Shown here in pieces: positions 3,954 to 57,880 of a stretch of 64,000 nt of DNA. Source of the DNA: Evansella clarkii (GTDB taxonomy: Bacteria > Bacillota > Bacilli > Bacillales > Salisediminibacteriaceae); contig NZ_MTIV01000022.1 of the NCBI RefSeq assembly GCF_002019695.1, forward strand, positions 1-64,000, given 5' to 3'. The notes under the pieces are model-generated. The model made no database searches. It worked only from the letters and a program-made list of their open reading frames with translations, and was not told the origin of the DNA. The position numbers and the translations under genes are program-made. Each line of letters opens with the position of its first letter. The stretch's first letter is position 1.

Positions 3954-4050
3954 CTTGTGATCCGAAGTGATAATTGGTCCTCAATATAAATCATTTAAAT
4001 AGGCACAATTATGTGATTGGTAAACTCAATTACAGCATTACTGTCCCAAT

Positions 4051-4770
4051 TTATTTCTTTAATGACTTCTGTACTAAAGCTGATAAAATTATACTTAATT
4101 CATATAATCCAATTAAAGGTATAGTAATAAGTAGGTCAGTCAAAATATCTGGTGGACTAATGATAACTGAAATTATAACCATAATAAAATAGGATACTTT
4201 CCTAGCTTTCTTTAATATGGTATGGTTTATGATTCCTAATCGGGTTAAAAACATAATTAAAACTGGAAACTGGAACAATACAGTTATGGGGATAACCAAG
4301 TAGAATACAAAGCTAAAGTATTGAATAATCCCAATGGCCTCCGTAGTACCTATTCTCTCTCCTAAAATTTGAGAAAAGTTGAAAACCAAGGGTAGAATTA
4401 TGTAATAAGAAAAAATAAAACCCAAATATAGAAGTATAACTGAAGTTGGAACATATATAAATGTAGCTAATTTTTCATTGCTATGTAAACTGGAGCTAAC
4501 AAATGACCATATTTGGAAAAACATAAAAGGGATTGCTAAGAAAATAGCTATGCCGATAGTAAAAAGAACATATATTCTTATCGTGTCCCAAGGGGAAAAT
4601 ACATTCCAAGATAGTTCTAATGCATGAGGTACATTCTTTAGATAATTTATTACACCATCTGCTAAGAAAAAACTAACAAAAGTCGCAAGTACAATAAAAA
4701 TTAAACTTGAAATTATTTTTCCTCTCAGTATTTCAAAATGTTCAATGAACGTTAAGTTATTTTCAGACAT
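4051..4770 (-). CDS. tatC: Sec-independent translocase TatC
   Basis: A 239-residue polytopic protein of the usual TatC size with the family pattern. The short N-terminus is followed by an amphipathic FIEHFEILRGKI that matches the conserved HLxELRxR region. Six hydrophobic segments follow, with the characteristic FQIWSFVSSSLHSNEK loop after the second. TatC binds the twin-arginine signal of folded export substrates. It is the last gene of the minus-strand cassette and follows tatA after a hairpin. A dedicated Tat substrate lies 2 kb upstream in the same direction, so this pair probably serves it. Confidence 0.92.
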   Translation of the reverse strand: MSENNLTFIEHFEILRGKIISSLIFIVLATFVSFFLADGVINYLKNVPHALELSWNVFSPWDTIRIYVLFTIGIAIFLAIPFMFFQIWSFVSSSLHSNEKLATFIYVPTSVILLYLGFIFSYYIILPLVFNFSQILGERIGTTEAIGIIQYFSFVFYLVIPITVLFQFPVLIMFLTRLGIINHTILKKARKVSYFIMVIISVIISPPDILTDLLITIPLIGLYELSIILSALVQKSLKK

Positions 4771-4790
4771 ATAGAATCTACTCCTATTTT

Positions 4791-4824
4791 GTTGAGATAT
4801 ACCTTAATTTAGGTATATCTCAAC
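4791..4824 (-). promoter_or_regulatory. Hairpin between tatA and tatC
   Basis: A perfect 14-bp inverted repeat (4791-4804 and 4811-4824, 6-nt loop) fills the space between the two genes. It has no T run on the minus strand and is followed directly by the tatC ribosome binding site. It is more likely to stabilise the tatA end or reduce tatC expression than to terminate fully. That fits the excess of TatA over TatC in Tat systems. Confidence 0.6.
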
Positions 4825-4831
4825 AAGTGAT

Positions 4832-5017
4832 CTATTCTTCTTTTCTATCCTCTTGCTCATCTTTTTGGCCATCTGATATGATATCTCTTGTCCCATCCTT
4901 AAATTCTTTTAATGTTCTACCAAACGCTCTTCCGAGTTCTGGCAGCTTATTCGGTCCAAATAAAAGTAGAGCTATTATTACTATTAAAACTAAACTAGCA
5001 GGACCAATATTACCCAT
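4832..5017 (-). CDS. tatA: Sec-independent translocase TatA
   Basis: A 61-residue protein with the whole TatA plan: a short N-terminal membrane helix, the hinge FGPNKLPELG, an amphipathic helix (GRAFGRTLKEFKDGT) and a charged tail. AAGGAGGGG precedes ATG. TatA oligomers form the export pore used with TatC for folded proteins. In Gram-positive minimal systems one TatA and one TatC suffice, as here. Confidence 0.93.
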   Translation of the reverse strand: MGNIGPASLVLIVIIALLLFGPNKLPELGRAFGRTLKEFKDGTRDIISDGQKDEQEDRKEE

Positions 5018-5052
5018 TATTATTTCCCCTCCTTTCTTGAAAGTAGTATTTA

Positions 5053-5499
5053 CTATTCTTTGTTCAATTCATATGTCTTAATGATTTGATCAGATTCATC
5101 TTTTAACACTAAATAAATTGGTCTATTATTGGGGAAATCAATTAAACTAGAAGAGTGTGTAATCCAAAAGGATATTTTACCGTTTTCAGCTGGTATTAGA
5201 ATGGATCTTTTGAGATCACCAATCGACATAATAGTATTAGTGTCATCAATACCAACAATAAATCCTTCTTCACTTTGAATCTCTGCACGATATTCTCCTT
5301 TGGAAAGTCGAGTTATCTCAGCAAGGAAGTATGATATTTCTCCATTATCTAAAAAGTTTACAAAACCTGTTTCGTCTTCACTTGTGACTAGTTGAAATTT
5401 ATTATCCTCAGTATCCACGTTTGATGTATTGCTAAAACACCCTATAGACAACAAAATAAAAAGTAGTAAAATGATAAAGATTAATAACTTATTTTTCAT
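5053..5499 (-). CDS. Putative lipoprotein of the Tat/Mau-like cassette
   Basis: A 148-residue protein with a lipoprotein signal peptide: basic MKNK, a hydrophobic core and the lipobox LSIGC, so the Cys near residue 21 would be lipidated outside the membrane. The rest is a beta-rich soluble domain with no family I recognise. A good ribosome binding site (GGGGG) precedes it. It sits between the membrane protein at 5717-6388 and tatA, all on the same strand. It may hold, receive or protect the exported Cys-rich protein, but this is inference from position only. Confidence 0.7.
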   Translation of the reverse strand: MKNKLLIFIILLLFILLSIGCFSNTSNVDTEDNKFQLVTSEDETGFVNFLDNGEISYFLAEITRLSKGEYRAEIQSEEGFIVGIDDTNTIMSIGDLKRSILIPAENGKISFWITHSSSLIDFPNNRPIYLVLKDESDQIIKTYELNKE

Positions 5500-5588
5500 T
5501 TAATATCCCCCCTCAAATAAGTTTAATTCCGTCACGAATACTTACTTATTCTCTGAATTGTTTGAACACCAAATAGTAGGCTACCCCT

Positions 5589-5720
5589 AATGAGGTGGTT
5601 GAAAAGTTGATCGATAGGGAGAAACAACATGAACTAACCGGTCATTACTTGAAGAAACTCGCTTATTACCTCACTTCAAAGAACTATGACTTGGTTTTCG
5701 TTTGTCGTCAATCTATTTAA
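5589..5720 (+). pseudogene. Coding remnant on the opposite strand
   Basis: A 43-codon open stretch (contains EVVEKLIDREKQHELTG and ends VCRQSI) has protein-like composition but no start codon or ribosome binding site. Its stop at 5718-5720 overlaps the end of the minus-strand gene at 5717. It is probably the tail of a lost mobile or phage gene; I do not recognise the family. Confidence 0.35.
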
Positions 5721-6388
5721 AAAAATAGAAAGAACTCGATATTAAATCTACTAAGCACTAACATTATACTAGTAATATAAACGACAAATAACATTCTTCT
5801 TCTCAATAAACTAAGAGAATTGGTGTTTTTGCACTGATTTTGTGCACTATTTAGGATGAAGTGTCTATAGGAAGTAAACACGGGAGGAACTGATCTAATT
5901 AGTCCATAAATTGCCCCCGCGATAATACTATATAATAAATCACCAATTAAAATGGATGTTATAACATAGAAATGAAATATAGATCCAGCTTGATATGTAA
6001 TAAATCCTAATCCTAAAATCGATCCCCAAAGTAGAGAAGATTTGTTTCCAGCTTGATTGACCCATTCTGCGGGTATCGCAAATTTTCCAGTCGGCAGAAT
6101 TTTGGTTTTATTTGTATACTCTAATAATAGAAATACAATGGTCGTTGTAAAAAGGATAGTCATTCTTGTTTCATAGGTTGCAAACAAAGATATCACTAAC
6201 CCTAATGCGCCTATGCATAAACCAATAAACGTAGAGCTAATAACCATCGATAATATATATTCAACAAAATATTTCACTCTTTTCTTTTGGTTGCCATCCA
6301 GGCTCCCTAAAACGTTTAGCCCTCAAATACTGTCTGAACTAGCTAGGGCTGCTGTTAATGATATTAAACCTAATAAAACAATATCCAT
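5717..6388 (-). pseudogene. Polytopic membrane protein interrupted by in-frame TGA
   Basis: A well-formed gene start (AGGTGG, then ATG at 6388) encodes a membrane segment ending in LASSDSI, then TGA at 6323-6325. The same frame continues open (GLNVLGSLDGNQKKR...) for another 200 codons with about five more hydrophobic segments. A Trp codon (TGG) in place of TGA would give a clean protein of about 223 residues. Otherwise a weak GTG at 6277 could start a shorter form of 186 residues. The length, segment number and setting beside MauE/MauD-like genes recall CcdA- or MauF-like electron carriers, but the paired membrane cysteines of that family are not evident. Confidence 0.6.
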
Positions 6389-6487
6389 CTACTCCACCTC
6401 CTGGAAAAAGTATTGAGGCTGGACAATAACTAAAATGGACCACGATAAAGAATAATGGTTAAATGTTAAAGGATTTTTTAAAGGAGA

Positions 6488-6542
6488 AAATCCGAACTAA
6501 TTCGAATTCTAGCAGTAGAAATATGAATCTTCGTTCGGATTT
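6488..6542 (-). terminator. Possible terminator or attenuator after the Tat substrate gene
   Basis: Ten-base arms (6488-6497 and 6533-6542) flank a 35-nt loop that can itself partly pair. On the minus strand it lies downstream of the Tat substrate gene and is followed by a T-rich stretch. It would separate the highly expressed substrate from the membrane genes. Confidence 0.45.
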
Positions 6543-6588
6543 ACCCTTTGTTTAAAATACTTTTTGTCCCATCCTCTTTTAATATTTA

Positions 6589-7056
6589 TTAATAGTGAGT
6601 TGTACTCCTGCAAGCACAAAGTACATATCTTCCAGATACTTTTGCCCCTCTATCACATCTACTAAAATGAGGGGGATCTGCAGGGCCAGCGATATCAAGT
6701 TTACAATCTCTGCATATATGACCACTTGATCCACCTTCTGAATACCAAAACCCTCCAGCATATGGACACAACCCAGTACCACATGGCGCGTTGGATCTTG
6801 TACAGGTTGAATATGAAGTAGGACAAGTTCCATTCGATAAGCGACATCCACTACACATCTGACCATGAGGAGGAGCACAAGGTGTTCCATGAGCCAGTGC
6901 CATTTGTAATCCATCTCTAGGATTTATTATAAGTATTGCTACTAGACCAGCAGTAGCGACTGCCAATTTGTTTATGAAATTTCTTCTGCTAATTTTTCTT
7001 TGCATCGATGCTACAAACGTTTGTGTTTTAGAGTCTTTGCTGTTTCTCTCCTCCAT
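6589..7056 (-). CDS. Tat-exported 12-Cys protein, MADH light chain-like
   Basis: A 155-residue protein with a twin-arginine signal (SRRNF at 23-27, hydrophobic stretch to about 50, cleavage near ALAHG). The mature part of about 100 residues has twelve cysteines (60-149). That is the number in the methylamine dehydrogenase light chain MauA, which has six disulfides, and the order of Cys-rich stretches is similar (MCSGC...GTCPTS near the start). MauA makes its TTQ cofactor from two tryptophans; here only one Trp (104) is visible, so TTQ cannot form. It is therefore likely a disulfide-rich exported protein of another function. The two genes upstream resemble MauD and MauE, which assist disulfide formation in MauA. 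Confidence 0.75.
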   Translation of the reverse strand: MEERNSKDSKTQTFVASMQRKISRRNFINKLAVATAGLVAILIINPRDGLQMALAHGTPCAPPHGQMCSGCRLSNGTCPTSYSTCTRSNAPCGTGLCPYAGGFWYSEGGSSGHICRDCKLDIAGPADPPHFSRCDRGAKVSGRYVLCACRSTTHY

Positions 7057-45776: not shown

Positions 45777-45901
45777 TAGGGGGCGCCAGGTGCGTTCCTT
45801 TTTTCTAATTGTACATAAAATTTTACGCACCCAAATTATTAAAGAAATAGCAAATAAATAACTCGCAAAAGACAGTCTATTTATATAGGAAGAAACTCGT
45901 C

Positions 45902-51407: not shown

Positions 51408-51542
51408 TTTCTCTACCTCCTAAAATGTGGGATACATCTTAAAGAGAGAAAATGGCGTATAACACAACCTTGAACGTTGATTTTTTAGTTCTAATAAAAA
51501 ACTAATAATAGAATAATAACTATGTTGGGTGCGTAAAATTTT

Positions 51543-51710
51543 ATGAGAAGGCGTGTTAAGGAACTAGTGAAGCGGGTGGTAAGAGCCCGGAAAGAGCTGG
51601 TCTATCTGATGTATTATAAGGTCAGTCAAGATCCAAGCAGCAGAGTTAGGGTTGCTGGAAAGGAAGAATCATGGGGGTCTCAGAGGGTAAATTGCCGTTT
51701 AATATCGTAG
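51543..51710 (+). CDS. Basic small ORF after the GGGTGCG element
   Basis: A 55-residue ORF (MRRRVKELVKRVVRARKE...) starting at the end of the repeated TTGGGTGCGTAAAATTTTAT element. No good ribosome binding site, and it overlaps the next ORF in another frame. Could be a recombinase N-terminal scar, as the same element precedes the recombinase at 56963. Confidence 0.3.
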   Translation: MRRRVKELVKRVVRARKELVYLMYYKVSQDPSSRVRVAGKEESWGSQRVNCRLIS

Positions 51711-51941: not shown

Positions 51942-53132
51942 ATGTTGGCTGTCAAAATTTCTATAATAACAGTGACCTTAGTTTTTGTGTTTTTTTCTTT
52001 CACTCGGCTTACTCACGAAATCATAATTAGCCTTTTAACCAATCCCTTATACTTACATTCTATGTTTTTAATATTTTGGTTATATTGTATTGCAAGTCTC
52101 ACAAAACGCTCCAATAATACGGTGAGGGGAAGTTATATCCCCGTTGCGCTACTGAGCTTTTTCTCAATATTTCCTATATTAATGGTCCCGATCGAGTCAG
52201 ACATTATTACAATCATCGTTTCTTTGTTTTTCATTCTTATTAATATAACTATTGCAACAACATATTTTAGGGGTCAAACCTTCGTAATTTCCTATGACAT
52301 TATGAAAAATCCTAAGTTAATTCCTTTCATAAGCTTTATGATTATTAAAATAGTTGTTTTAGCCTTAATGGTAAATTATATGTCATTTTTCAAAGATTTT
52401 TTTGAGCCAATTACTATCAATACATATGGATTATTAAACGAATTGTTATTTGTAAATTTGATACTTTTAGGGTTGTTCCTTCTCTTTTTTAGAATGTTAT
52501 CTAATGAAAAGGTTATAAGGTTAATTGAGAAATCTGGTCTTTTTAATTTTAAAAATTTTGTTGGTGGTATGTTGTTTTTTATCTCTATAGTTATCACAAT
52601 TCACGTTTCTGTTTACCTAATTAATTTAGCCACAGATTACCAACTCATTACTGTATTTAGAGAATTTTCACTAACTGAAATTATGGGGGAATACCTAAGC
52701 CAGATTTTTGGTGTAGCTTTGTTAGAGGAGTTGTTCTACAGGTTTATAGTAATAATATATTTACACCAACTATTTACTAGTAGAACTAAATTAAACCGTA
52801 AAACTATCACGGCTTATACCTTAATAATCTCCCAAGTGTTATTCAGTGTTATACACCTATTGCCCGTATTACTACTCCATGGTATGCCAGATTTATTTAT
52901 CTTATTATTTCAACTGTTGCAGTATATTATTGTTGGCTTTTATCTCTTCTATGCTTTCTATAAAACTAATAATCTGTGGATGGCGATTTTTCTCCATGCT
53001 TTAATAAATACCAATATAACATTGTATTACATTGATAGAACTTTTTTGATAGACTACAGTACCTTGGTAATCCTCTTTTCCTCGTTGATATTGCTTCCAT
53101 TTTATCACTCCAAAACTAAAGAAACTGTTTAG
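51942..53132 (+). CDS. CPBP-family intramembrane metalloprotease
   Basis: A 396-residue protein with about ten membrane segments. The CPBP (Abi/CAAX) motifs lie near the C-terminus: ALLEELFYRF (EExxxR), FSVIHLLPV and FLHALINTNI. AAGGAG precedes ATG. In peptide gene clusters such proteases often give self-immunity or cut leader peptides. The RiPP-like genes lie next to it on the other strand. The N-terminal 200 residues are longer than in typical family members. Confidence 0.85.
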   Translation: MLAVKISIITVTLVFVFFSFTRLTHEIIISLLTNPLYLHSMFLIFWLYCIASLTKRSNNTVRGSYIPVALLSFFSIFPILMVPIESDIITIIVSLFFILINITIATTYFRGQTFVISYDIMKNPKLIPFISFMIIKIVVLALMVNYMSFFKDFFEPITINTYGLLNELLFVNLILLGLFLLFFRMLSNEKVIRLIEKSGLFNFKNFVGGMLFFISIVITIHVSVYLINLATDYQLITVFREFSLTEIMGEYLSQIFGVALLEELFYRFIVIIYLHQLFTSRTKLNRKTITAYTLIISQVLFSVIHLLPVLLLHGMPDLFILLFQLLQYIIVGFYLFYAFYKTNNLWMAIFLHALINTNITLYYIDRTFLIDYSTLVILFSSLILLPFYHSKTKETV

Positions 53133-53146
53133 GGTATAAGGTACTT

Positions 53147-53172
53147 GGAGGGGCTACCCCCTCCGTTTTCTT
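53147..53172. terminator. Terminator between CPBP and ABC genes
   Basis: GGAGGGG-CTA-CCCCCTCC followed by GTTTTCTT (53147-53172). Confidence 0.8.
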
Positions 53173-53218: not shown

Positions 53219-54850
53219 TTAATTAGCAATTTGATTTTCTATTGAAGTATTTCTACTTTGTAAATTTACTATCCTATCGTTATATCCGATTATACTTTTT
53301 TTATGCGTTGTGTAAATAATTGTGGAGTCAACTGTCCTGTTTAAAAAGTTTGACCATACGACTTTTTCAGTGTCAGTATCTAGTGCGGAGGTAGGTTCAT
53401 CCAAGATGATAATATCGGGTTTTGTTAACATTATCCTTGCTAACTCTAATCTTTGCTGCTCACCTCTGGAGATTTTAGTTTTATCTATAATAGAAGCGTT
53501 ATCAATAAAATGCTCCAATTTAACTTCTTTTAAAACTTCCTTAATATCGGTATTGGTTATGGGTATGTTTTCAGTTCCGTAAGTTAAATTCTCTACAACT
53601 GTACCTCTTAGTAGGCTGCATTCGTCAATTAAAAATCCAATCGACGGTTCAGTATTCGATCTTATAGTTATGGTACCTTGATAATTAAATAAACCAGCTA
53701 TGAGTTTACAGAGTGTAGATTTACCAGAACCACTTTGACCGATAATTGCAACTCTTTCACCTCTCTCAACATCAATGTTAAAATCTTTAATTATCAGCTT
53801 ACCATCAACGCTATAGGTTAAGTTTCTACAGGAAATAATGATGTCAGGGTCACTATCGTTGGTATATTCCCTGATACCATATCGCTCATCTCTCTCTAAC
53901 AGTGGTTTAATTCTCTGAAAAGAAGTTGTCATGTCTTTGTAAATAAATGGTACAAAATATAAGCTATCTAGGGGTTGAGCAGTTCGAAACATTATTTGCG
54001 TAAAGGCAAGTAATACTCCAATTGTAGTTTGATTTATACTTATAAGATACGCACCTACTGCTATGATAACCAATTGTTTTGAATTGGCCATTATTCCAAT
54101 AATCGCTTTATGTTTTGCTTGATACAGGGATAGAGATTCCCCTTTACCTAATGCATCTTCATAAACGTTCATATATGATCGTTCTTCATACGAACTGAGA
54201 TTATTTAATTTTATAAAAAGAAGTCTATCCATAAGCTGTTTTAACGACTCCATGGTTTTACTTTCTAAGATTTTCACTTTTTGAACTTTACTTTCATACG
54301 TCTTAGAAAAGAAGAAAGAGTAGATGCTCTCTGAAAAAATGAGAAGAAAAGCTATGGTTGCTAGAAATGGGTTAAAATAAAACATAATAATACATAAAGC
54401 AAGCACTAGAAAAAAATTGAGAGGTATTTCAAGAAATAAATATAATCCCCGTTGGATAATCATTTCTAAATCTTGCTTAGTACGGTAAATAAGATCGCCT
54501 TCGCCAAATTTTTTAATTGACATATAATCTTTGTTTAATATCGAATTTACCACTTGCTTTTGGGTTTTTTGTTTTAAAAAAATATTTGTTTTGAGTTGAA
54601 CTTTGGCTAGAAAATATTCTAAAATGGCAAATAACACTAAAAAGAGTAATAGAAACAGTAGAGTGTTTGTTAAGGTTCCTTTGTCGAAAGTAGGTAGTAT
54701 AGTATCGAATATGTACATCACAATAAAAGCTGGTATTAATGTGAAGAGAAGGAAAATAACTTTCAATGTAAACTGTAATAAAAATAGAAGAAAGGCTTTT
54801 CTATTAATTACATCCTTAAATTGATTATATATTTCAATTAAATTTTTCAT
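53219..54850 (-). CDS. ABC exporter of the RiPP-like cluster
   Basis: A 543-residue half-transporter fusing a six-helix membrane domain (about 1-300) to a nucleotide-binding domain. The latter has Walker A GQSGSGKST, signature SRGEQQR (altered LSGGQ), Walker B DIIILDEPTSALD and the switch His in TTHKKS. There is no N-terminal peptidase C39 domain, so leader removal would need another protease, perhaps the CPBP protein. It follows two Cys-rich precursor peptides and a radical SAM enzyme on one strand, and probably exports the mature peptides. Confidence 0.88.
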   Translation of the reverse strand: MKNLIEIYNQFKDVINRKAFLLFLLQFTLKVIFLLFTLIPAFIVMYIFDTILPTFDKGTLTNTLLFLLLFLVLFAILEYFLAKVQLKTNIFLKQKTQKQVVNSILNKDYMSIKKFGEGDLIYRTKQDLEMIIQRGLYLFLEIPLNFFLVLALCIIMFYFNPFLATIAFLLIFSESIYSFFFSKTYESKVQKVKILESKTMESLKQLMDRLLFIKLNNLSSYEERSYMNVYEDALGKGESLSLYQAKHKAIIGIMANSKQLVIIAVGAYLISINQTTIGVLLAFTQIMFRTAQPLDSLYFVPFIYKDMTTSFQRIKPLLERDERYGIREYTNDSDPDIIISCRNLTYSVDGKLIIKDFNIDVERGERVAIIGQSGSGKSTLCKLIAGLFNYQGTITIRSNTEPSIGFLIDECSLLRGTVVENLTYGTENIPITNTDIKEVLKEVKLEHFIDNASIIDKTKISRGEQQRLELARIMLTKPDIIILDEPTSALDTDTEKVVWSNFLNRTVDSTIIYTTHKKSIIGYNDRIVNLQSRNTSIENQIAN

Positions 54851-54870
54851 AAAACCTCCTAATAAGGCAA

Positions 54871-54900
54871 TGAGGTGAAAACTTTAAAATTTTCACCTCA
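54871..54900 (-). promoter_or_regulatory. Hairpin between peptide 2 and the ABC gene
   Basis: TGAGGTGAAAA and TTTTCACCTCA are perfect 11-bp arms. On the minus strand no T run follows, and the next 23 nt carry the exporter's ribosome binding site. It fits a partial terminator that keeps peptide mRNA in excess over transporter mRNA. Confidence 0.6.
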
Positions 54901-54947
54901 AGTTTCAAGTTCTTTACATACCACCAATTATTAAGTTTTTAACTTAG

Positions 54948-55064
54948 TTATACTCCCCAATTGTTTGTCCAACACCAATTTATTCTACAGTATTGGACAG
55001 CACAAACCAAAGGATCATTGACATCTGTAATTTGAACTTGGTAAGGAGTTGTTATGAATTCCAC
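54948..55064 (-). CDS. RiPP precursor peptide 2 (Cys-rich)
   Basis: A 38-residue peptide from GTG 55064 with AGGTGG 7 nt upstream. That binding site overlaps the stop of peptide 1. It starts MEFITTP, contains DVNDP and then a core with three Cys spaced C-x4-C-x4-CW, ending TNNWGV. The parallel to peptide 1 (ME-x-I-x-TP, NDP, C-IN-x-CWTN) shows a shared leader and core design. It is the likely substrate of the radical SAM enzyme upstream. Confidence 0.72.
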   Translation of the reverse strand: MEFITTPYQVQITDVNDPLVCAVQYCRINWCWTNNWGV

Positions 55065-55075
55065 AGTACCACCAC

Positions 55076-55186
55076 CTAACTGTTTGTCCAACAAATATTG
55101 ATGTTACATGTGTTTATCCCGCACAAGGTCCGGCAACTACCTCCACCTCCTGGATCATTGGAATCTGGTGTTACAATATGTTCCAT
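55076..55186 (-). CDS. RiPP precursor peptide 1 (Cys-rich)
   Basis: A 36-residue peptide from ATG 55186 behind AAAGGAGGTG. It has leader MEHIVTPDSNDP, a GGGG hinge, then a core with four Cys (C-x3-C-x4-C-x4-CW) ending TNS. Short Cys-rich peptides with a leader starting xxIVxP next to a SPASM radical SAM enzyme are typical of sactipeptide/ranthipeptide-like systems (for example Clo7bot-type peptides, a by-eye comparison). The GGGG just before the core may be the cleavage region. Confidence 0.75.
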   Translation of the reverse strand: MEHIVTPDSNDPGGGGSCRTLCGINTCNINICWTNS

Positions 55187-55321
55187 ATCTTTTCACCTCC
55201 TTTACTTAATAGATTCCTATAACATTTTTTTCTGTTATAGTAGTTACCCCTATCCGAAAATGCATAAAATAGGATATGCGATCCCGAAACACTATACCAC
55301 CCCACCTAAAGGCTTAGGTTC

Positions 55322-56647
55322 TTATACTTCTTCTGCAATTAAGTCCTTCTCGATGGTTTGTTTGGAAATAGGGTTCCTTGTATAATATCTGTGCAATCTA
55401 TCTTTGATGTTATATTTTAATTGATCGCATTCAAAATCTTCTTTTTCTAAACTCAAATCAGGACATCTTCCTTTACATAAAGGCATAATATTACACGTAG
55501 TACATTTTTTAGGTAACTGCCAGTTCATCCATTTAGTTAAACGATCATAATTCGTTATGCCGTCTTTTAGTGTTCCAACACGTAATTTTTTGTTACCAAC
55601 TTCATGCCAACATTTAAACAAATCCCCCGCGGCATCAACTACATACGCAGAATTGTCAACTGCCTGGCAAATTCCCCCACCTCTATTAACCGGTAGTAAA
55701 TCTCCCATTTCGAAACCTATGCTGTCAGCATACTCAATCAGCGAAGTTTCCCATTTTGAAAACTCTCTAGTAACTAAACAGGTTTCGCTAATGGATTGAC
55801 ATGCTTCCGTGGAGGCCCCAACAGGAGCAAAATACACTGTTAACTTTTTATTTAATCCTTCCTTTAAAAGTATCGGGAAAAGTTTATATACATCTTCTAC
55901 ATTTTCTTTAGATACGTTTACTCTAATAGCAATATCAACTAAATCATATATTTCCTTAATATTGGATAAGATTTTATCGAATGTTCCTTTTCCATTCCTT
56001 AAAATCCTTGTTAGATTGTGAGTCTCGGGTCCCCCATCGAGAGTTATTTGGACATGGCTTAATTTATATTTTTCCACTAGCTCTAAAGCGGTTTTTCTGT
56101 CAAGCAAATAACCGTTAGTAACCATTGTAGCGGAGTATTCCATTCCTTTTTTTTCACAAAGATCGATTGCATATTCGGAAACATTAGCAATTAATTTTTT
56201 CATAAGTAAGGGTTCTCCCCCGTACCAAGTAACGGAGAGACTTTCTTTATTATTCGTGTTTTGCTGAATAAATTTTTTCAAATCTTCTTCTTTTTCGCCC
56301 TCTAAATACTCATCTACATGTTCTTCATAACAATAAGGGCACCTAAAATTACATTGAAGGGTAGTGGCAACGGTTAAGTGTAAGTTTGTATTACCATAGT
56401 TATACAAGTTATGTTGGTATAAATATAATCCTAATTCATCTCTGTCTTTAGGGACCACAAAGCCAGCACGGGTAAATTCTTCAAGGGCTGTGTTAGGTAT
56501 TTCCTTTCCACTATTTAAGTCTTTTAAGTAGTTTCTATATGTGGCGTTTAATTTCACAAAAGCTCCTGTGTGACTGTTGTACAAAAAGTAAGTATTGTCC
56601 CTCTTATAAGGTACATTATACTGAGACACTTTATACTCTGTTGCCAT
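55322..56647 (-). CDS. Radical SAM/SPASM peptide maturase
   Basis: A 441-residue protein. The N-terminal 90 residues (MATEYKVSQYNVPYKRDNTY...) look like a peptide-recognition domain. The radical SAM core has the Fe-S motif C99-x3-C103-x2-C106 in LQCNFRCPYCYE, then VTWYGGEPLL and ITLDGGPETHN. The C-terminal SPASM domain (about 320-415) has seven or more Cys (ICQAV, FKCWH, KKCTTC, PLCKGRC, ECDQ) for auxiliary clusters. Such enzymes make thioether or other crosslinks on Cys residues of leader peptides. It is first in the operon, before the two precursors. Confidence 0.9.
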   Translation of the reverse strand: MATEYKVSQYNVPYKRDNTYFLYNSHTGAFVKLNATYRNYLKDLNSGKEIPNTALEEFTRAGFVVPKDRDELGLYLYQHNLYNYGNTNLHLTVATTLQCNFRCPYCYEEHVDEYLEGEKEEDLKKFIQQNTNNKESLSVTWYGGEPLLMKKLIANVSEYAIDLCEKKGMEYSATMVTNGYLLDRKTALELVEKYKLSHVQITLDGGPETHNLTRILRNGKGTFDKILSNIKEIYDLVDIAIRVNVSKENVEDVYKLFPILLKEGLNKKLTVYFAPVGASTEACQSISETCLVTREFSKWETSLIEYADSIGFEMGDLLPVNRGGGICQAVDNSAYVVDAAGDLFKCWHEVGNKKLRVGTLKDGITNYDRLTKWMNWQLPKKCTTCNIMPLCKGRCPDLSLEKEDFECDQLKYNIKDRLHRYYTRNPISKQTIEKDLIAEEV

Positions 56648-56962
56648 ACATAAATACCCTCCCGTTCAATAATTTTACAAAAAAATAATAACTATTTTTT
56701 TTTAAAAAATAAAACTAGATTATAGGCTGATAAGCAGGAAGAGAGCCGAATATTGCAAAATTTCATTTTATTTCTCTGTTTTTTTAATAATTTCTTGAAA
56801 TTTTTAAATAATATGATAGTTTTTAGGAGAAATAGTAATAAATATATTACATTTATCTGGAAATAAAATGACTTTTAATTACATTGGATGCATTCACAAA
56901 AAACAATCGATACAATAGTAATTATATTGGGTGCGTAAAATTTGATGCGGAGGTGTACTTTA
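56648..56962 (+). other. Gene-free AT-rich stretch with GGGTGCG element
   Basis: Long A/T runs, a TATATTACATTTAT repeat near 56840, and TATTGGGTGCGTAAAATTTG (56924-56943) directly before the recombinase ribosome binding site. The last matches copies at 51524 and, inverted, 45813. No gene seen. Confidence 0.5.
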
Positions 56963-57880
56963 GTGGAAAATTGGAGCTTACTGGAGCGGTATATCCAGTA
57001 TCTGGAGGACAAAGGCAGGAAGCCTGGAACGGTGAAGCAATATGTGTCGGATCTCAAGCAGTTTATAACCTGGCTGGACTCGACAGCTGACAGAGAGCAG
57101 GATCTTTTAAAGATAGACGGGGCGCATATCGAGGCGTATACCGCTCTATTAAACGAAAAGAAGTTGAGCCGTGCAACCATTAAGCGTCACCTGTCTGCAA
57201 TTAATCGACTGCTGGCGTATTACCGAATCGATCATGTCATGCCGGAACACCACACGACAGACTATTCGGCACCCCCGTTAAAACGAAGCGATTTTGTTAC
57301 GATACATGAAATGCACCAGCTGCTGACGTCGATGAAGCGTCCGATTGGGTCAGCAGCAAGAGACATACTCATTCACAGAAACCTGGCAATCGTTCATTTA
57401 ATCCGGTACAAAGGATTTCGTCCAAAAGAAGTATCTCTGATTAACATGAACATGATAAATATGGGCCAGTCTCAGATAGCGCTCGATCTGTACGACCCGG
57501 AGCCGGTCTATCATTTATCTGATGAACATATGCAGTACATCCGGGATTATTTACAAACGATTGATGCGCCGAAAAGACCGCGCCGGCAATCATCTGATCC
57601 ATTATTCGTGGCCTTTAATAATCGGAGCAATCACTACCAGTTCGATTACGAGCTTGTAAAACCGAAACGATTATCTGTGAGAGGGATACAAAAAATGATA
57701 AAAGAAGAAGTGCAGCACGCCGGTATCCGGAAGCTATCTGCGAAACACTTACGGAACAGCTGCATCCTGGAGCATGTCATGCGAGGGTATGATGAGAAAG
57801 ACATCCAGAGTTATTTTCACTTGACGCACCCCCATTCTTTGTATCGATACAAGGAGTACGGAATATCGGAAAACCCTTGA
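56963..57880 (+). CDS. Tyrosine recombinase
   Basis: About 305 residues from GTG 56963 (GGAGGTG 9 nt upstream). The N-terminal SAM-like domain (SLLERYIQYLEDKGRKPGTV, RATIKRHLSAINRLLAYY) is typical. In the catalytic part, the box I Arg is in YKGFRPKEVSLI, the box II His-Arg in AKHLRNSC, and a late His and Tyr in LTHPHSLYRYKEYG. The spacing is Tn554/XerS-like. It may act at the GGGTGCG element that stands right in front of it. Confidence 0.82.
   Translation: MENWSLLERYIQYLEDKGRKPGTVKQYVSDLKQFITWLDSTADREQDLLKIDGAHIEAYTALLNEKKLSRATIKRHLSAINRLLAYYRIDHVMPEHHTTDYSAPPLKRSDFVTIHEMHQLLTSMKRPIGSAARDILIHRNLAIVHLIRYKGFRPKEVSLINMNMINMGQSQIALDLYDPEPVYHLSDEHMQYIRDYLQTIDAPKRPRRQSSDPLFVAFNNRSNHYQFDYELVKPKRLSVRGIQKMIKEEVQHAGIRKLSAKHLRNSCILEHVMRGYDEKDIQSYFHLTHPHSLYRYKEYGISENP

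Follow-up and report, generated by a model that had tools for sequence, protein, structure and literature searches.

The described systems closest to the gene cluster considered here are Clo7bot (maturase model TIGR04334, precursor model TIGR04333), the TIGR04463 maturases with Cys-every-fifth CefA/CefB, the ranthipeptide system PapA/PapB (freyrasin), CteA/CteB (SCIFF, thermocellin) and TigE (8vpo). The Clo7bot locus of Paraclostridium bifermentans plasmid NZ_CP079738 comprises tandem Cys-rich paralogues with the leader M-x-[FY]-I-x-[KQ]-P, a maturase, and an ABC exporter showing no peptidase domain among its Pfam hits. In Methylomagnum CefA (plasmid NZ_AP019784) Cys recurs in five-residue repeats, and of the 28 positions three residues after Cys (+3) 16 are D or N; PapA/PapB employ a repeated local Cys-acceptor motif (excerpt of PMC9413430). 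The subject here is the first 64,000 nucleotides (hereafter the window) of Evansella clarkii contig NZ_MTIV01000022.1, in which two short Cys-rich open reading frames (ORFs), P1 and P2, lie between a radical SAM/SPASM maturase gene and an ABC exporter gene. We find this to be a genuine cassette for ribosomally synthesised and post-translationally modified peptides (RiPPs), of known broad type but forming a small branch below current NCBI model thresholds; its product is very probably a pair of related, cross-linked Cys-rich peptides. A search of the open-licence literature by name or accession (Clo7bot, the model accessions, Cys-every-fifth) returned no paper on these maturases.

The window cluster shares with Clo7bot a plasmid location, tandem Cys-rich paralogues and an exporter of the same description, the two maturases being 33% identical. 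However, the window maturase scores 293 bits against TIGR04334 (cut-off 600), compared with 732 for that of Paraclostridium; successive Cys are five residues apart in 4/5 steps, whereas a separation of four is seen in 18/32 Clo7bot steps; and the precursors are encoded downstream rather than upstream of the maturase. TIGR04333 (cut-off 31) matched neither P1, P2 nor four peptides of the clade described below at E<=10, while two Paraclostridium control peptides of Clo7bot type scored 44.6 and 27.6 bits. The best maturase model, TIGR04463, yields 311 bits against a cut-off of 525, and scores with the CefB, PapB (NF047865) and SCIFF maturase models are 222, 154 and 86 bits against cut-offs of 600, 340 and 425, respectively. 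Membership of the Clo7bot, TIGR04463, CefB, geopeptide and SCIFF maturase families was rejected, all scores being under cut-off. As regards the peptides, the CefA unit CGINA resembles CGINT of P1, but CefA is a 679-residue protein with a lectin-like stretch, compared with 36-38 residues for P1 and P2, neither of which matched the CefA/CefB peptide models (NF038108/NF038107; peptide cut-off 30). PapA, whose partner PapB is likewise a SPASM maturase, has the motif CX3D where the window has CX2[N/Q], and the CteA precursor differs. No model of NCBIfam (E<=10), Pfam (E<=1) or PHROGs (E<=0.01) matched P1 or P2, in keeping with an earlier reading of this DNA (the original prediction) that had thought the core spacing, with its terminal CWTN, unlike known ones. 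They represent a small branch with a regular Cys repeat, outside every family model used.

Paralogous precursors beside a SPASM maturase

The minus strand carries, in order, the maturase, P1, P2 and exporter genes, separated by 135, 11 and 97 nt, with a gene for a CPBP/Rce1-like intramembrane protease homologue convergent to this unit beyond the exporter (Table 1). Short precursors, having a conserved leader and a variable core, thus adjoin a modifying enzyme, as expected of a RiPP locus, and the placing of the two ORFs between maturase and exporter was as originally predicted. Shine-Dalgarno-like sites precede both P1 (GGAGGTG) and P2 (AGGTGG). The elements ME-x-I-x-TP, NDP and C-x-IN-x-CWTN, said to be common to the two peptides, match letter for letter, although the Cys spacing first proposed for the core required correction: P1 contains four Cys (C-x3-C-x4-C-x4-C) and P2 three (C-x4-C-x4-C).

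The proposal that P1 and P2 are paralogous precursors is upheld by their local alignment (z = 9.6, a score matched in 0/500 shuffles) and by paralogous counterparts in two relatives. The 471-nt gap between maturase and exporter was put through 5000 dinucleotide shuffles to assess the chance occurrence of such ORFs, counting those of at least 30 residues with at least three Cys and a leader xxxIx[TK]P. At least one was obtained in 3/5000 shuffles, while the real gap contains two. Cys content alone would be unconvincing, since two three-Cys ORFs with any leader appeared in 335/5000 shuffles. A six-frame survey of the window's open stretches of at least 25 residues showed at least three C-x-[IVT]-[NQ] units in P1 and P2 and in no other.

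The maturase matches Pfam PF04055 (E 6.5e-20) and has the CX3CX2C motif at residues 99-106 along with the seven Cys of a SPASM domain (327, 346, 382, 385, 391, 395 and 407), these ten cluster Cys being invariant across a seven-sequence alignment. Residues about 1-87 form a domain like the RiPP recognition element (RRE), predicted to be a PqqD-like winged helix, which matches RRE structures when searched alone.

Scanning genome contigs with the maturase revealed nine loci, of which L004, from Paenibacillus selenitireducens, encodes a protein of 55% identity and the others proteins of 27-36%. In whole-genome searches (E<=1e-60, large taxa sampled, all counts including the genome of the window itself) matches were found in 1/397 genomes of the order (protein query), 1/378 of the class and 14/398 of the phylum; a genus mate encodes a 30%-identical relative (E 1.8e-45). 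The family of genome G437 gave matches in 12/394 genomes, two at 926 and 702 bits and the other ten at 295 or less. The former is P. selenitireducens, whose sequence agreed with L004 throughout the 1 kb compared, and the latter is G1042 (locus L049), a member of the same family and the second of the pair at 55% identity. In both, the maturase is followed downstream by tandem precursors and an ABC exporter of their own, and it is this repeated pairing that establishes the window locus as a genuine RiPP cluster. P1 resembles the precursors of both (z 5.9-9.2, local alignment versus shuffles). Linkage of homologous maturases to a different precursor, which would have refuted the original prediction, was not seen here: these two have precursors of the same kind. 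A 39-row tree unites the three maturases in one clade with support of 100/100, its wider placement being weakly supported. A scan of viral contigs with the maturase alignment found three loci, of 28-33% identity over part of the query, and no plasmid matched the cluster in a nucleotide search.

More distant loci provided observations of their own. The maturase of L028, 33% identical, is accompanied by four precursors in tandem (543-1435) whose units read C-x-x-D-x. In L054 (genome G1051), six leader-bearing Cys-rich ORFs adjoin a maturase frame interrupted by two in-frame stops, perhaps a decayed cluster. An unverified 2.8-kb record labelled Enterococcus phage IME_EF3 (L015) pairs a maturase of this group with a precursor-like ORF ending CFINY (features at 1038-1178 and 1214-2491); it is possibly host DNA.

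The leader, noted in the original prediction as shared by P1 and P2, proved to be a trait of the wider maturase group and neither new nor peculiar to this locus. The form M-x-[FYWHI]-[ILV]-x-x-P occurs in 23/26 precursor candidates, including P1 and P2, whose maturases are 29-55% identical to that of the window, a count to be read as an upper estimate because the ORFs had been picked for a leader-like start. Peptides annotated Clo7bot on the Paraclostridium plasmid have it also. A step like N-D-x-G ahead of the core recurs in L004 (GNDQG, GNDAG) and in 3/4 L028 peptides (NDAG). The leader counts, and the core counts below, cover a selection of small ORFs, candidates from L005 and L055/L056, some Paraclostridium copies and near-identical duplicates having been omitted.

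Core repeat and the +3 position

The core is composed of units C-x-[IVT]-[NQ]-x, namely CGINT, CNINI and CWTNS in P1 and CAVQY, CRINW and CWTNN in P2. Six of the seven Cys begin C-x-[IVT]-[N/Q], equalled in 0/20,000 permutations, a figure that is only descriptive since the motif was derived from P1 and P2 themselves. Five peptides of the clade that played no part in motif discovery were therefore more informative: the widened motif C-x-[IVT]-[NQDEKR] begins at 12/26 of their Cys (permutation mean 2.10, 0/5000) and the narrow form C-x-[IVT]-[NQ] at 4/26 (14/5000). Elsewhere the widened motif begins at 7/35 Cys in L028 (7/5000), 3/23 in L061/L062 (80/5000), 5/38 in Clo7bot (42/5000), 2/5 in L015 (651/20,000) and 1/17 in L051/L053 (1963/5000).

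In an entropy scan of 11 offsets from Cys, constraint within the clade was greatest at +2 and +3 (1/4000 each), followed by -3 (54/4000). In 14 other precursors +3 was again the strongest (1/4000), ahead of +6 (43/4000) and +2 (201/4000). The +3 residues counted in the scan (n = 21) are N in eight cases, Y in five and K in three, with one each of L, Q, R, I and F. The set NDYKRQ was fixed before a run on 16 further peptides, the sequences of which had been viewed, uncounted, beforehand. It accounts for 43/82 of their +3 positions, against an expected fraction of 0.38 (5/4000); for 30/65 when one of five L054 peptides is kept (48/4000); and for 31/52 in the 12 peptides with an M-x5-P leader (7/4000). 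N, D and Y alone gave no signal in the 16 (21/82, 1399/4000), and the effect as one of those three residues was rejected. The constraint at +3 beyond the clade is real but modest.

Proposed chemistry, export and leader removal

The reading we prefer, with a probability of roughly 0.6, is an RRE-guided cassette in which the maturase makes ranthipeptide-type thioethers between Cys(i) and residue i+3, the ABC protein exports the products and a membrane protease cleaves them. In P1 and P2 the short leader M-E-x-I-x-T-P would dock on the N-terminal RRE as an extra strand; a 5'-deoxyadenosyl radical formed by the radical SAM core would abstract hydrogen from a core residue; and a Cys sulfur near the SPASM auxiliary clusters would bond to the resulting carbon. 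The pairs would be C22-N25, C27-N30 and C32-N35 in P1 and C21-Q24, C26-N29 and C31-N34 in P2, each link, probably at the beta carbon, costing 2.016 Da (-2.016 Da, three per peptide). The ranthipeptide type is suggested by two things, the constrained +3 position and, by analogy, kinship with CteB and PapB. Products would leave through the peptidase-less ABC protein, a membrane protease, with CPBP as the candidate, would remove the leader, and an antimicrobial or signalling role may be supposed.

Competing readings draw on the variety of the +3 residue (n = 21), the occurrence of T, I or V at +2 in 15/22 units and a tie between TigE (8vpo) and CteB as top overall fold match of the maturase; the protease assignment is weakened by the failure of the window and L004 CPBP proteins to align and by the presence in G1042 of an S41 peptidase where the window has CPBP. 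The varied +3 residue would suit the same RiPP cassette making C-alpha thioethers, as in sactipeptides, or pairing its Cys otherwise, with +3 serving only recognition or turn geometry; the sactisynthase SkfB is, moreover, among the three solved sequence relatives of the maturase and among its fold matches. This we consider unlikely. Linkage of Cys to +3 was chosen because offset -2, the position expected to be constrained if residues paired with the next Cys, is unconstrained in the clade (1440/4000) and because the final CWTN has no later Cys.

The beta-branched +2 residue and the fold match with TigE, which is also the best structural match of the maturase N-terminal domain and whose reaction is reportedly not a Cys thioether, would instead favour an enzyme making no thioether at all. 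Three-residue cyclophanes (triceptides) have the motif aromatic-x-N/K/R/D at the modification site, and W-T-N stands at the end of both P1 and P2, the matching place in peptide L004b being L-I-R. Such an enzyme could form cyclopropylglycine at +2 or a cyclophane at W-T-N or aromatic-x-x-N, leaving the Cys free for disulfides or metal. In the part of PMC9062424 consulted, TvgB converts Val to cyclopropylglycine and cyclophanes are proposed for Aro-x-x-Asn repeats. Thr, however, occupies +2 in 6/22 units and is incompatible with the Val route of TvgB; an aromatic residue at +1 is missing from most units (CGIN, CNIN, CRIN, CAVQ, and CLIR in L004b); and Cys is the invariant residue of every unit, all of which makes this reading distinctly improbable. 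Least credible is that P1 and P2 act as small regulators, immunity peptides or metal binders and are not substrates of the maturase. Metal binding by short Cys-rich peptides is known, and the candidate substrate status of P1 and P2 is a deduction from sequence, but their leader is common to Clo7bot-annotated peptides beside divergent maturases, and in three genomes the paralogous copies are placed between the maturase and exporter genes.

If Cys-to-+3 linkage is taken further, Cys-x-x-[polar or Tyr] might be the substrate rule of the whole Clo7bot/TIGR04463/CefB-like group, with Cys joined to the +3 beta carbon of nearly any side chain; the window would then be the cleanest form, tandem C-x-[IVT]-[N/Q]-x pentads in a cassette bracketed by recombination sites and moved between replicons. 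This extension is tentative and on balance doubtful.

The exporter, 37% identical to those of L004 and L049, has fused membrane and ATPase domains (Pfam PF00664, PF00005), and no C39 peptidase domain is among its Pfam hits; another protein must therefore cut the leader. All three clade loci, the window, L004 (z -3.58) and L049 (z -4.38), have a hairpin between the last precursor and the exporter; the sequences differ, and the recurrence suggests separately set levels of precursor and exporter. That of the window is perhaps a transcript stabiliser or attenuator.

The assignment of CPBP to leader cleavage or immunity, made in the original prediction, is weakly supported. In its favour, the window, L004 and L061 each have a CPBP gene at a distance of 2.2-2.7 kb from that of the maturase, the L004 one following the exporter, and the window gene sits inside an AT-rich, repeat-bracketed stretch, so that we favour its being part of the unit. 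As a conserved component of the clade, on the other hand, CPBP was rejected in view of the L004 and G1042 comparisons above. S41 peptidases are encoded near the L050 and L008 maturases, and SkfC is listed as a putative protease of the skf cluster in the section consulted of a sactipeptide review (PMC8172795). Proteases thus recur near these maturases, yet not of one family; calls were used only where Pfam confirmed them, labels from cruder patterns being set aside. The terminator expected between the ABC and CPBP genes is represented by a terminator-like hairpin.

Table 1. Features of the window at and around the cassette.
Feature	Position	Strand	Details
59-nt imperfect direct repeat, left copy	51496..51554	+	80% identical to right copy, spacing 5402
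CPBP/Rce1-like intramembrane protease homologue	51942..53132	+	396 aa, Pfam PF02517 E 1.1e-12
Terminator-like hairpin between ABC and CPBP genes	53146..53165	+	region: 3 such sites vs 2.5 expected from shuffles
ABC exporter gene	53219..54850	-	543 aa
13-bp hairpin, last precursor to exporter	54871..54900	-	no U-run; fold z -2.87 (97-nt gap)
P2 precursor	54948..55064	-	38 aa, GTG start, 3 Cys, MEFITTPYQVQITDVNDPLVCAVQYCRINWCWTNNWGV; core CAVQY/CRINW/CWTNNWGV
P1 precursor	55076..55186	-	36 aa, 4 Cys, MEHIVTPDSNDPGGGGSCRTLCGINTCNINICWTNS; core CRTL/CGINT/CNINI/CWTNS
Leader (precursor N-terminus)			MEHIVTPDSNDP
Radical SAM/SPASM maturase gene	55322..56647	-	441 aa
59-nt direct repeat, right copy	56898..56956	+	overlaps recombinase frame start
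XerC/XerD-type tyrosine recombinase	56942..57880	+	Pfam PF02899, PF00589

Repeats, recombinase and replicon

The window is the start of a contig of 234,850 bp that encodes a Rep_3 initiator, ParA, an actin-like protein and a type II/IV secretion ATPase. The first three make a plasmid likely, and the original description of the cluster as plasmid-borne is borne out by all four. The contig ends, when compared, show no overlap, leaving circularity unsupported. The CPBP (0.296), ABC (0.308) and maturase (0.348) genes are low in GC, the contig having 0.436, the amidase gene on the left flank 0.484 and the recombinase gene on the right 0.459; the AT-rich stretch spans about 51.5-57.0 kb. A further AT-rich patch lies outside the cassette at 49.0-49.8 kb. 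A second AT-rich island is present at 4000-7000 (GC 0.307 and 0.343 in 2-kb windows from 4000 and 5000).

This stretch is bracketed by the imperfect direct repeats of Table 1, and the local alignment score of its two edges was unmatched by random pairs of 600-nt contig stretches (0/394). The repeat core TTGGGTGCGTAAAATTT has three copies in the genome, all on this contig, and was absent from a sample of 327 further genomes of the order. The third copy, inverted, is on the minus strand at 45814-45841, some 5.7 kb to the left of the first; the intervening stretch may be another module. Six viral contigs also contain the core, but 0/6 of these stretches encode a relative of the recombinase, and its interpretation as a viral element linked to the recombinase was rejected.

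The recombinase, which has matches in 62 plasmid records, each below 60% identity, probably belongs to the plasmid backbone. Just upstream of the gene for its nearest plasmid homologue, from Virgibacillus (48.8%), is the 14-nt core GGGTGCGTAAAATT. Local alignments of that upstream region scored 41 and 33, no better than shuffles (maxima 44 and 37), so that the argument for a recombination site depends on the exact 14-mer being present at the equivalent place. Allowing up to three mismatches on both strands, GGGTGCGTAAAATT was not found in four Priestia plasmid loci. These relatives (L090-L093) have a different inverted repeat (GGTAAATTTAATATAC ... GTATATTAAATTTACC) upstream of the recombinase start, as if the site were recombinase-specific. 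From this anatomy, the 5.4-kb cassette, CPBP included, appears to be placed between two recombinase sites; it may have arrived, or be able to leave, by site-specific recombination at the repeats beside the plasmid recombinase, and is possibly a swappable unit on a large plasmid.

If the bracket of direct repeats is indeed what it seems, the cassette would exemplify a RiPP unit that is mobile as a recombination module of plasmids. The +3 rule, if true, would aid the calling of short precursors, at least one leader-bearing ORF of the Paraclostridium array being without a Clo7bot label or without annotation in its record. It would, above all, give a testable prediction of the acceptor for this maturase group, the most useful prediction of the analysis.

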